From Winogradskyella sp. (GTDB lineage: Bacteria > Bacteroidota > Bacteroidia > Flavobacteriales > Flavobacteriaceae), in the NCBI GenBank assembly GCA_028383925.1, contig JAOEWO010000002.1, positions 1-64,000 on the forward strand: a DNA stretch of 64,000 nt. The letters run 5' to 3'. The stretch's first letter is position 1. Every line of letters begins with the position of its first letter. The notes under the pieces are model-generated. The model ran no database searches. It worked only from the letters and a program-made list of their open reading frames with translations, and was not told the DNA's origin. Positions 1-17,610 of the stretch are shown in pieces. The position numbers were made by a program, and so were the translations under genes.

Positions 1-50
1 ATTTATTTACTAAATTAGTTGATTGTAACACGCAACTAATCTTATACATA
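1..50 (+). repeat. Palindromic dispersed repeat, copy 1
   Basis: The core TTACTAAATTAGTTG..CACGCAACTAA contains an 8-bp inverted pair (ATTAGTTG 14-21, CAACTAAT 33-40). A closely similar copy lies in opposite orientation at 14276-14323, differing by a few bases and single-base indels. Neither copy is in a gene. Confidence 0.6.
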
Positions 51-230
51 CACGTTAACCACAAATTAGTAACCAAGGAATCATCGAGCCACTTCCTTCA
101 TAATTAAAGGAAGTTTAAACTCGTTACTTAAGTGTTATTGAGGAAGGAGTATTGGATATCGTCCAAGGCGAGTGGATCGTCAAAAGAAGAAATTGTGTTG
201 CAACTTTGAATAATAGGGGGAGCATACAAA
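1..230 (+). other. Gene-free structured stretch, possible non-coding RNA
   Basis: No open frame of useful length was found here on either strand. The stretch is rich in perfect hairpins read on the plus strand: an 8-bp stem at 14-21/33-40, an 8-bp stem around 91-114 (ACTTCCTT/AAGGAAGT), and a 5-bp stem TTGGA/TCCAA near 153-167. It ends in the strong terminator at 231-256. A row of stems closed by an intrinsic terminator is what a small RNA, or the 3' UTR of a gene just left of the window, would look like. No known RNA family (RNase P, SRP, tmRNA or 6S) was recognised. The first 50 bases are also a dispersed repeat listed separately. Confidence 0.3.
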
Positions 231-7263: not shown

Positions 7264-7704
7264 TTAAACACCAATATCCTCATTCCAAAGTTCGGGACGA
7301 TTTTCAATGAAGGCTGTCATCATAGAAATACACTCTTTATCATTTAATACAATAACTCCAACACCATTAGCTCTTAAATATTCTTCTGCTCCCAAAAACG
7401 TTTTGTTTTCACCAACGACTACTTTAGGAATACCATATAGTAGAATTACTCCAGAACACATGGGGCAAGGCGAAAGTGTAGTATAAATAATAGACTCCTT
7501 ATAAACTGACGCAGGTTGTCTGCCTGCATTTTCTAAAGCATCCATTTCACCGTGTAACACAACACTACCATCTTGGACTCTTTTATTATGACCTTGACCT
7601 AATATTTTTCCATTATGAACGAGTACACTCCCAATGGGAATACCGCCTTCATTTAATCCTTTTTTTGCCTCACTTATTGCTACTTTTAAAAATTCGTCGT
7701 GCAT
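7264..7704 (-). CDS. Cytosine deaminase-like nucleoside/base deaminase (yeast FCY1-like)
   Basis: This is a 146-aa zinc deaminase. The zinc and catalytic motifs are present: H51-G-E53 and PC-x-x-C (C80, C83). Many other blocks (GHNKR, LHGEMDALENAGR, YTTLSPC, YGIPKVVVGEN, RPELWNEDIG) resemble the single-domain cytosine deaminase of yeast more than bacterial tRNA adenosine deaminase TadA or guanine deaminase. The likely reaction is cytosine to uracil plus ammonia in pyrimidine salvage. This assignment rests on motif memory and the exact substrate is not proven. It starts 12 bp after the stop of the threonine dehydrogenase gene, suggesting co-transcription. Confidence 0.75.
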   Translation of the reverse strand: MHDEFLKVAISEAKKGLNEGGIPIGSVLVHNGKILGQGHNKRVQDGSVVLHGEMDALENAGRQPASVYKESIIYTTLSPCPMCSGVILLYGIPKVVVGENKTFLGAEEYLRANGVGVIVLNDKECISMMTAFIENRPELWNEDIGV

Positions 7705-14139: not shown

Positions 14140-14509
14140 ACTTGTTTAATTAAGATCTACAATATAATAATTAAATAGGTGACAAGGGTCTGGTTGTGAG
14201 AATGCTTTGGTATTATAACATTTGTTTTTATTGTAATGCGTTATAAAAAATGATGCAATTACGATGGTGGTGGACTTGTGTATGGTTAGTTGCGTGTTTA
14301 CAACAACTAATTTAGTAATAATTACCGACCACGTAAGTCTGAGAGGATTTTTGTAAGTAGGCGAGAAGCCAGCAATAAATTGCTGTGTGTAATAAGTTAC
14401 TATAACAAGCTTTTGCAATAGCTAAATCAGGATTAATATATGATGGGGAATATAAAAGTACGTTAGTGAAAAATTAATGAGATTTTACTTGTTTTTTACC
14501 ACAGTACTT
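14140..14509. other. Gene-free repeat-bearing region next to the NTPase cassette
   Basis: The track offers a 90-codon minus ORF (14146-14418), but its composition is unlike a folded protein and it runs straight through palindromic DNA, so I do not call it. The region holds the dispersed repeat (14276-14323), a 6-bp stem AGCAAT/ATTGCT pairing (around 14370-14388), and GTTACTATAAC. Its character suggests non-coding remnants of mobile cassettes. Confidence 0.4.
14276..14323 (-). repeat. Palindromic dispersed repeat, copy 2
   Basis: The minus strand reads TTACTAAATTAGTTG-TTGTAAACACGCAACTAACCATACAC, nearly the same as plus-strand positions 1-50. The inverted pair is TTAGTTG 14286-14292 and CAACTAA 14304-14310. 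Confidence 0.6.
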
Positions 14510-17025
14510 TGTTGGGCTTAGTTTCTTTCAATTCTCCTAATATCCTTTGTAAGATTCGGTTCAATATATTCAACAAAACTTCCAAAGTAAGATTTTAGTC
14601 TATTCGATTGTTTTTCCTCACAACTCTCAATATACTTTAGAAAAGATTTTACACATTCAACACGACCATTCAAACTTCTTTTTCCTTCATCATTGGACAA
14701 AGGGAATTTTGAGTGAATTTCATTAAAGGAATCCTTGTCAAATATGGGTGTGTCTTGAATAATTAAATCAAAATAATGGAAACGTGTGCATAATTCCTTA
14801 ATGTAATAATACCCTTTTAGAGTAATTGTTATATTCAACTCGTCTGGTATGTCCTTTTTATCAATATCTGTTAAAACTTCATCGGTATCGATTAAAGAAA
14901 TATTAATTAACTCAAGAATTGCAGACCTTAAAGTTTTAATTGAATAACCAAAAGATGAAAATAAATCATAAACAGTGTTTATAGAAATAAATCTATTTGC
15001 ATTTCCTTCGTTCTCGTAGAGTTTTACTAATTCTTTAAGAATATAAAAATTTAGAAAATGGTCAGTTGAGTTCTCATTTATTGATAGAATATTATAAATA
15101 GCACTATTTTTTGAATTGTAATAATGCTTATTAATCAATCCAATAGATTTAATAAACTCGTGAAACGGTATTGGACTATGTGTTTCATCTTCAATTCTAA
15201 ATCTTTCCCTCATTATGTAATCTTCAACTTTTGTATGACCAGAAGTTAGGAATAACTTGAAAATTCTCAAACCCTCTCTGATGTTAGGATAAGTAGTTTG
15301 ATTTAGAAAATCTATTATATCATTATTATCTGATGAGAATACTGAACTTTTCAAACTTGTTAAAAATTCAATTACAGCTTGATTGTTTATTTTAACTTTA
15401 TACCCTTTAGCATTTTGGGCTTCAATCTCAATATCGTCAACATTTAAATTTTCTAAAGTATAATCAAGTCTTTTTTGTAATACTTCAGAATATTTTGGTG
15501 CAGTAATGTGATAAACATTACTTTCATATGCATCAAAAGGTGGTGAGAATCTCCACTTATAATAATATCCTTCTCTTAAACTTATTACAGTACCACAAAG
15601 GCTCGTTTTAGCTAAGGAATGAGCAAATAAGAATGCTTGTTCTTGTACTTCATCTTTAAATTGGTCAGCATTATCAATGATAATTATTAAGCGTTTTCTT
15701 CTATCTATAATAAAGTATTTACTTAAATTTTCGAAATGATTTAGATGATTGCTTTGTCTTTCAGTTAGAAAATCTGCTATTTTTTTTTGATAAGAAGTTT
15801 CGTTGTTTTCTTTATCAAAAAGCCATATTCCTTTATCATTTCTCTTTATTTCTTTTAAATAAATTCTTTTTAAGGTTTTTAATGAATGCAAATCATAGCT
15901 CTCATATTTTTCATATATATTCTCAAGTATACTTTTACAAATTAGGCTTGCGTCAAAATAATTATTTGTGTTGAAGTAATCTCTTAAATCCAGATATGTA
16001 GTTAAATGGTTATTTAAATCATATTCCTTTGTTTGGAATTTAAAGAGGTGGTTGATAAAAGTAGATTTTCCAGCTCCTTTTGAACCTATAATTACTATTG
16101 GTTTTGGTGGTGTTAAATTGGTTGAATTTATATCATCAGTTTTTATCTCTTCGCTGATTTGTTTTTGAATATTAGTTGTGTTTATAGCAGGTACAACATT
16201 TGATAGTTTAGGTGCAACGTCAGAAAAAAGCCGTTCTATATCATCTCTGTTTTTTTTAGTTTCTTTGTTTTCTACAAAACATTTTTCAATAAAATCTTCA
16301 TTACTTTTTGTTTCTGAACTGAATATTTCTCCAAAAACACTATTAATAATTGGTGTGATTTTAGAACTTAAAGGATTTCTAATTAGCTCTTTTTCGTTTT
16401 GCGTAATTTTTGAGAATATCGTGTAACTAGGATTTACATTACTAGGAAGATCGTAAATAAAACCTCCGTTATTAATTACAGAAAATTTAGATAAAGTTTC
16501 ATAAAATTCAACAAAGCGATTTTGAATATCTTCTATTCCATTAAAGACAATACAAGGGTTTTCTTTCCAAGAGGTACCATCTGAGTTGTAAAGTTTTAGT
16601 ATTATATACTGTTTACCATTTGTTATAACTCCATAATTAACACCAAAATCTCCAGCATAGTTTCTGATTTGGTTTATAACATCTTCATTCTCTTTTAAAA
16701 AGGTTTTAACTTTTAATGATTTATGATTTTTTGGTATTACAAATTCTTTAAAATTTCTTTTTGCTTCAATAATAAAGTGAAAGCCTGAAATGGATACTTT
16801 GTAATCAAAATATCCCGACTCGACTTTTCCCTCTCTAGTAACATCAGATTCATTTCAACCGAGAATTTTAAATAATACACTATCAATTAATTTTGAACGA
16901 GTATCAGATTCGTTGATATCTTCTTGTATGAATTTGTCAAAATCTGATTTTAATAAGCTAAAATTTTCAAATGCTTCATCAACTGATAATGTTTTTTCCA
17001 TATGTTTTTTAAATTAAGCCCAACA
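14510..17025 (-). mobile_element. Inverted-repeat-bounded gene cassette carrying a nuclease-NTPase gene
   Basis: The 11-bp sequence TGTTGGGCTTA (14510-14520) is repeated perfectly inverted as TAAGCCCAACA (17015-17025). The two arms hug a single gene: the left arm contains its stop codon and the right arm lies 13 bases before its ATG. The arms contain GTTGGGC and GCCCAAC, which fit the integron core consensus GTTRRRY and its complement RYYYAAC. No integrase or transposase is nearby. I infer that the gene moved as one unit; the mechanism is unknown. Confidence 0.5.
14518..17001 (-). pseudogene. HsdR_N-like nuclease domain fused to P-loop NTPase, one in-frame TGA
   Basis: The full frame runs 827 codons from ATG 17001 (MEKTLSVDEAFENFS..) and is interrupted only by TGA at 16857-16855 (codon 49). 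The track shows only the last 457 codons from a TTG. At the stop the sequence reads KILG-stop-NESDVTREGKVESGYFDY, then FHFIIEAKR. Relatives have LGW at that place, so TGG became TGA. This N-terminal 200-residue domain has the E..GYxDY..IEAKR core of type I restriction R-subunit N-terminal nuclease domains. A Walker A (GSKGAGKST) follows at about residue 310, and a Walker B-like LIIIIDNAD lies about 60 codons into the track ORF. The C-terminal 300 residues are helical. Proteins of this layout are often anti-phage or regulatory NTPases; that role is inference. Past codon 49 the frame is intact over 778 codons, so the lesion is recent. Confidence 0.75.
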
Positions 17026-17277: not shown

Positions 17278-17610
17278 ATGAACACATTAAGAAACAAAGT
17301 ACAGTTAATTGGTAACTTAGGTAACGATCCAGAAATTATCAATTTAGAATCAGGTAAAACATTAGCCAAATTTGCAATTGCAACTAACGAGAGTTATAAG
17401 AATGCGCAAGGTGAAAAGATTACAGATACCCAATGGCATAATATAGTTGCTTGGGGAAAAACGGCTGAGATTGTAGAAAAATACATTACAAAAGGTAAAG
17501 AAGTTGCTATAGAAGGCAAACTCACTACACGCTCTTGGGAAGATAAAGAGGGTATAAAACGGTATACCACAGAAGTGGTTTGTAGCGAACTTTTAATGTT
17601 AGGTAAATAA
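17278..17610 (+). CDS. ssb: Short single-stranded DNA-binding protein
   Basis: This is a 110-aa SSB: one OB-fold (NKVQLIGNLGNDPEI.., FAIATNESYKN.., DTQWHNIVAWGKTAEIVEKYITKGKEVAIEGKLTTRSW) that binds ssDNA as a tetramer. It ends ..CSELLMLGK and lacks the Gly/Pro-rich tail and the acidic DDDLPF-type tip that recruits repair proteins. It may therefore be a secondary SSB rather than the main replication protein. It is transcribed alone, with a strong terminator 30 bases after the stop. The accessory cassette lies 250 bp upstream. Confidence 0.9.
   Translation: MNTLRNKVQLIGNLGNDPEIINLESGKTLAKFAIATNESYKNAQGEKITDTQWHNIVAWGKTAEIVEKYITKGKEVAIEGKLTTRSWEDKEGIKRYTTEVVCSELLMLGK

Follow-up and report, generated by a model that had tools for sequence, protein, structure and literature searches.

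The element at positions 14,510 to 17,025 of the analysed DNA (a stretch of 64,000 nucleotides from a draft genome of Winogradskyella sp., hereafter the window) is, with a probability of about 0.9, a single integron cassette of a Flavobacteriaceae type that has been stranded and has decayed. The reading as a cassette is well supported. Since the attC site in the window is incomplete, membership rests on the core boxes at the 5′ and 3′ ends of the gene, on the core of the attC site and on a copy of the same gene in Gelidibacter sediminis. The central idea of the preliminary description, that the gene is a cassette, was right and reaches further than stated, and the element itself proved to be decayed. 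The system behind the cassette looks like a little-described class of integrons.

The 11-bp sequence TGTTGGGCTTA occurs without a mismatch at positions 14510–14520 on the forward strand and 17015–17025 on the reverse strand; the draft assembly of 2.9 Mb (101 contigs) contains no third exact copy. The repeats are thus perfect and lie tight against both ends of the gene, the left arm spanning the stop codon, as had been reported. They are the integron core sites R′ (GTTGGGC, at the gene start) and R″ (GCCCAAC, at the stop). The proposed fit to the consensus GTTRRRY/RYYYAAC was borne out by the exact complementarity of the boxes at both cassette ends and by G. sediminis, where the gene is a cassette with the same exact pair. 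We scanned for ORFs of at least 60 amino acids framed by an inverted repeat of at least 9 bp. Apart from the marked gene, none of 55 such ORFs in the window was framed in this way, compared with 9 of 297 in control loci (nearly all of them AT-rich runs) and 86 of 361 in cassette arrays. The suggested search for other genes bounded by TGTTGGGCTTA in the genome yielded no further exact copy; as the boxes differ from cassette to cassette, such a recurrence is not expected for an integron. The coordinates of all features are listed in Table 1.

Table 1. Features of the cassette and its surroundings in the window (positions of the whole stretch).
Feature	Position	Strand	Remarks
Cassette gene, 827 codons, PD-(D/E)XK-like nuclease and KAP/AAA P-loop NTPase; pseudogene as assembled	14518..17001	-	ATG at 17001, TAA at 14518
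In-frame TGA, codon 49	16855..16857	-	TGG in L003, L004 and L005
PD-(D/E)XK-like motif SGYFDYKVSISGFHFIIEAKR	16756..16818	-	D and ExK invariant in 4 homologues
Walker A, GSKGAGKST	16060..16086	-	
Walker B-like, LIIIIDNAD	15664..15690	-	
R′ core (GTTGGGCTTA), 5′ end of the cassette	17015..17024	-	exact; same box in L003
G/TT junction with the ssb upstream region	17024/17023		part of the R′ core
R″ core (GCCCAAC), 3′ end of the cassette, immediately past the stop codon	14511..14517	-	complements R′ at 17018-17024
attC R″ end, then IS110-family element	14378..14515	.	138 nt, 90.6% to L057; insertion directly past R″-A
Remnant of the IS110 transposase C-terminus (AVCNKLL*QAFAIAKSGLIYDGEYKSTLVKN), one stop	14382..14477	+	longer L057 copy has PF02371
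attC core and L′ part of the marked cassette; outer R′ (GTT) unrecognisable	14284..14381	-	R1, 54.7 bits, model positions 19-114
ssb; cassette junctions recur upstream of it in the genus	17278..17610	+	
3′ half of another attC-like site, R′ GTTAACCACA	1..63	+	R1, 36.6 bits

The gene had been described as a fusion of an HsdR_N-like domain with a P-loop NTPase. The NTPase part was recognised by Pfam above the cut-offs (AAA_22, 31.8 bits; KAP_NTPase, 24.9 bits), and HSDR_N_2 reached 22.7 bits, slightly under its cut-off of 25 bits. Close homologues are present in Gelidibacter sediminis (L003, 86%), Algibacter (L004, 85%) and Tenacibaculum (L005, 72%), and the four proteins agree fully in the D...ExK motif, Walker A and Walker B. 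A likeness to stand-alone restriction/NTPase proteins is given by remote homologues on proteobacterial plasmids, which align over the full length with 24–25% identity and are annotated as 'predicted type IV restriction endonuclease' or 'P-loop NTPase fold protein'; one of them is adjacent to a methylase/restriction pair and one to phage packaging genes. A protein search of 150 related genomes gave no other copies of the gene, and no relatives were found on viral contigs. PADLOC matched the gene to no named anti-phage system; only IetA and mad8 gave partial matches over the P-loop region (E ∼0.002). An anti-phage role, as first proposed, is nevertheless plausible, and the intact product would probably be a stand-alone nuclease-NTPase acting on invading DNA.

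The in-frame TGA at codon 49 had been overlooked. After this codon, the next in-frame ATG, GTG or TTG is codon 371, which lies past the nuclease motif and the P-loop, so that neither of the two is made from the gene as assembled. As the genome is a draft (101 contigs), this TGA could stem from an error in the assembly.

In G. sediminis (L003), the marked gene is the third cassette of a three-cassette array and lies between two matching core sites, with a nucleotidyltransferase gene of the aminoglycoside/lincosamide type in the first and YefM-YoeB in the second cassette. The YefM-YoeB cassette starts with GTTAGCAGC and ends with GCTGCTAAC, and the copy of the marked gene has an exact R′/R″ pair, starting with GTTGGGCTTA and ending with TAAGCCCAAC. 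The 5′ box complements the 3′ box within a cassette of this locus, whereas the boxes of neighbouring cassettes differ. Such complementary ends are expected if circular cassettes are inserted at G/TT, R′ and R″ being joined in the circle. The nucleotidyltransferase of the first Gelidibacter cassette (L003:228-998) matches PF04439 and PF21418.

The Algibacter copy (L004) is accompanied by a full-length attC (66.5 bits) in which the GTT is mutated, and the Tenacibaculum homologue (L005) has no core sites. According to the preliminary description, finding the same gene without the repeats would speak against a cassette. The Tenacibaculum locus is such a case; it indicates that the gene can also exist outside cassettes, and the evidence for the cassette stands.

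The proposed covariance search for attC gave a match directly downstream of the gene, at 14284-14381 (54.7 bits). This site is incomplete: R″ and the core with L′ are present, a remnant of an IS110-family element lies between them and the outer GTT is gone. In another species, an IS110-family element occupies the same position of an attC (L057), and its transposase contains PF02371 and PF01548. The insertion point is common to L003, L013, L049/L094, L057, L095 and L136. Members of the IS1111-attC group are known to insert, as IS110-family elements, at one end of attC (PMC11187229). The elements of this group (Tetu and Holmes, 2008; ISKpn4 and ISPst6 in PMC11187229) share with those described here the IS110-family DEDD transposase and its location at the R″ end of attC, and differ from them in that the hosts here are flavobacteria. 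The odd sequence after R″ was also considered as a different class of attC, which was rejected because it is the end of the IS110 element. Owing to the interruption by IS110 and the lost outer R′, the cassette can no longer count as intact and mobile.

The G/TT junction of the cassette is located 254 bp upstream of ssb. Six of 29 congeners have an R1 site (R1 being the covariance model that we built for these attC sites) upstream of ssb, pointing away from it, with a matching junction 197–236 bp before the start codon, and a GTTGGTATG junction was found upstream of ssb in a seventh (L013). Cassette junctions in seven of 29 congeners indicate that this region is a recurrent docking place; it is perhaps a secondary attI. 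A point against the cassette reading is that attI is resembled only weakly by the 5′ boundary of the window cassette (GGGATAATAGGT/GTT). A comparison with strains lacking the insert had been suggested; among the congeners, the sequence separating ssb from the zinc-finger gene was unalignable, and no clean empty site with matching flanks was found. An apparent acetyltransferase-type gene was seen at the same ssb-adjacent spot in L011, L015, L018, L020, L023 and L030, which marks the region as a generally variable one.

A short motif from the centre of the attC-like sites was found in 50 of the 61 genus genomes, and the reversed control pattern occurred once among the matches listed. Using R1, sites were detected in all 61 sampled genomes of the genus and, across the phylum, in 92 of 297 Bacteroidota genomes. 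The genome studied here has 13–16 R1 sites, the cassette register being visible in its arrays on contigs C68 and C65, and the genomes of Gelidibacter, Algibacter and Tenacibaculum have 21, 41 and 67, respectively. The sites are either 136 nt or about 200 nt long and have a conserved central hairpin; in an alignment of 52 sites, compensatory changes were evident in seven of the nine pairs of the L″/L′ stem. The window contig itself starts inside an attC-like site (Table 1), suggesting that the assembly probably broke at that repeat.

The register of the arrays was most clearly seen in G028, a single-contig genome with approximately 77 sites, all in one direction, in an array of more than 100 kb. 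In this array, R′ and the R″ of the next site agree at a mean of 5.1 of six variable bases, the agreement being perfect in 54 of 76 cases, compared with a mean of 2.4 bases and a maximum of 2.84 in 2000 trials with shuffled order. A gene-less cassette-like repeat starting with GTTGGTATGTAATTGCCTGCGGCACG and containing a strong internal hairpin recurs in the arrays of several species. It is located at L086:2401-2640 (about 226 nt between site starts), in L013 upstream of ssb and in L004 after position 7619, just past the Algibacter copy of the marked cassette.

The arrays start at a tyrosine recombinase gene. The best TIGR02249-matching recombinase was chosen from each of 20 genomes, blind to attC, and R1 sites were present at 13 of these 20 loci, always downstream and on the same strand. 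At six of the seven loci without sites the contig edge follows within about 0.5 kb downstream; at the seventh, L131, which encodes a recombinase of 281 amino acids, the sequence on the downstream side contains no sites, and the sequence on the upstream side ends after 136 nt. There were no R1 sites in 20 XerC/D-type loci (289 kb). Next to the recombinase gene, a GTTnnnnnn box fits R″ of the first attC in 22 of 23 arrays, with 9/9 matching positions at 20 loci and 8/9 at two. This box lies 28–46 nt past the recombinase stop codon in 19 loci, 83 nt past it in one and, in two divergent loci, 151 nt upstream of the recombinase gene; it often directly follows GATATAACNN or ATATCCAATT. On sequence grounds, the GTT beside the recombinase is the attI. 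The possibility that the TIGR02249 matches are unrelated IS- or Xer-type recombinases was ruled out by their linkage to attC and by the attI tests.

That no integrase is nearby holds for the window, which encodes no tyrosine recombinase, but not for the genome, which has an array-type recombinase with attI on contig C38, followed by the junction TATATAACTA/GTTGGCAGT. The route of spread, previously called unknown, can therefore be named as an integron platform whose attI and integrase are found on C38 and throughout the genus. The C38 recombinase (L163) and that of L133 are both located downstream of pnp (91% identical), which suggests a common platform position. Several subfamilies can be distinguished among the array-head recombinases (L083, L086 and L094 versus L085, L087, L089-L092 and L096): proteins of 355 amino acids divergent from the array, proteins of about 375 and of 385–415 amino acids co-directional with it, and proteins of about 280 amino acids without the N-terminal extension.

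All 31 array-linked recombinases lack the IntI-specific (I2) insertion of about 41 residues. The spacing between KGxKxR and HxLRH is 65 residues in 30 of them and 66 in one; the IntI of this phylum have 106–107 residues there, and XerC/D have 72. In most of them about 100 additional N-terminal residues are present. On the other hand, the catalytic residues R, K, HxxR, H and Y are kept, and the best structural match of the L083 recombinase model was V. cholerae IntI4 (PDB 2A3V), which together constitute the likeness to IntI and Xer/XerA. Tyrosine recombinases matching TIGR02249 are present in all congeners, with scores of about 190–216 versus a cut-off of 265, and in none of the 61 genus genomes was an IntI above this cut-off found. 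Such IntI occur in 84 of 297 Bacteroidota genomes, all but one outside the class to which this genome belongs. In the recombinase tree, a single clade (100/100) unites the classical IntI of the phylum and contains no array recombinase; the branches are long, and the tree gives no firm order at its deeper levels. The I2 helix has been described as the innovation that enables integron integrases to recombine single-stranded attC, and Xer proteins are devoid of it (eLife 2020, PMC7790495). Integrons have been reported to be rare in Bacteroidetes, and among the complete genomes analysed with IntegronFinder 2.0, Salinibacter ruber was the only member of Bacteroidetes proper with a complete integron (PMC9024848). 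The open literature searched, which excludes subscription papers and preprints, contained no account of integrons in Flavobacteriaceae whose integrases lack I2, and an earlier description may exist.

The shortness of the arms, and a Tenacibaculum homologue that does without them, might suggest a chance inverted repeat or a regulatory or terminator sequence around an ordinary chromosomal gene. This is extremely improbable, as the only two copies in the genome lie precisely at the gene ends, the same boxes occupy the same places in G. sediminis, no other ORF of the window is so framed, and an attC core with the remnant of an attC-targeting IS follows directly downstream; the Gelidibacter locus and the array statistics have already refuted it. 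Terminal inverted repeats around one gene and the lack of an integrase nearby would also fit a non-autonomous transposon or a MITE-like unit with 11-bp termini. However, a family of such elements would share its repeat sequence, whereas the repeats seen here vary by cassette and pair only within a cassette. Moreover, TGTTGGGCTTA is not repeated elsewhere in the genome, the many genes bounded by the same 11-mer that a transposon predicts were not found in it, and the cassettes are directional, each closing with an attC-like site. We therefore regard a transposon as very improbable.

More serious is the idea that the cassette was brought in by a classical, I2-bearing IntI belonging to another lineage of Bacteroidota and that the I2-less recombinases at the array heads are bystanders. 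The 84 of 297 Bacteroidota genomes above the TIGR02249 cut-off, some of which also have R1-type sites, are in line with it. We consider it unlikely, because none of the 61 genus genomes has such an IntI yet all have the sites, because in almost all arrays an attI-like junction is found at a distance of 28–46 nt from the stop codon of the recombinase, and because the XerC/D-type controls are free of sites. This genetic evidence strongly suggests that cassette recombination is catalysed by the I2-less array recombinase.

In its intact form, such a system consists of the tyrosine recombinase gene, the adjoining attI (..ATATAACNN/GTT) and the cassettes, each comprising one gene and an attC of 136 or about 200 nt. 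A cassette begins with TTRnnnn and ends with the complementary nnnYAAC, so that R′ and R″ would make up a single attC once the cassette is excised as a circle. Joining would take place at G/TT: the recombinase would attach such circles to attI or attC and could also place them at secondary sites, of which a recurrent one would be about 200–250 bp upstream of ssb. As judged from the present sequence, the marked cassette was likely captured upstream of ssb, after which an IS110-family element would have entered the attC next to R″, most of this element would have been deleted with loss of the outer GTT of R′, and TGG would finally have changed to TGA at codon 49.

Like known integron cassettes and CALIN elements (PMC9024848), the flavobacterial cassettes combine one gene with an attC, have GTTRRRY/RYYYAAC boxes and form directional arrays, and as in CALIN elements they can be placed away from the integrase. 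They differ in their attC sites, which are group-specific with 136 or 200 nt and a conserved central hairpin. With the sedentary chromosomal integrons of Vibrio and Xanthomonas they share very large arrays (about 77 sites and more than 100 kb in G028), the similarity of attC sites within a genome, and toxin–antitoxin and resistance-like cassettes. Their integrase, by contrast, is without I2, has in most cases about 100 extra N-terminal residues and is mostly co-directional with the array, with attI after its stop codon. Both the K-to-HxLRH spacing (65 versus 106–107 and 72) and the TIGR02249 score (about 190–216 versus 265) set it apart from IntI and XerC/D.

On balance, we favour the view that Flavobacteriaceae possess their own, largely overlooked class of integrons with arrays reaching more than 100 kb, in which I2-less Xer-like recombinases would recombine attC and the region upstream of ssb would be a second docking place. 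In that case, the folded attC would be handled otherwise, for example by the extra N-terminal domain, or a second recombinase lineage would have evolved cassette recombination. The whole genus carries attC arrays under I2-less recombinases with matching attI. If these recombinases are the enzymes, the need for I2 in cassette recombination becomes directly testable, as does the origin of integron integrases from Xer-like ones. If true, there would also be a large pool of cassettes, represented in the loci read by the nucleotidyltransferase, YefM-YoeB and the nuclease-NTPase gene, which present-day integron finders would probably either overlook or report as lacking an integrase.
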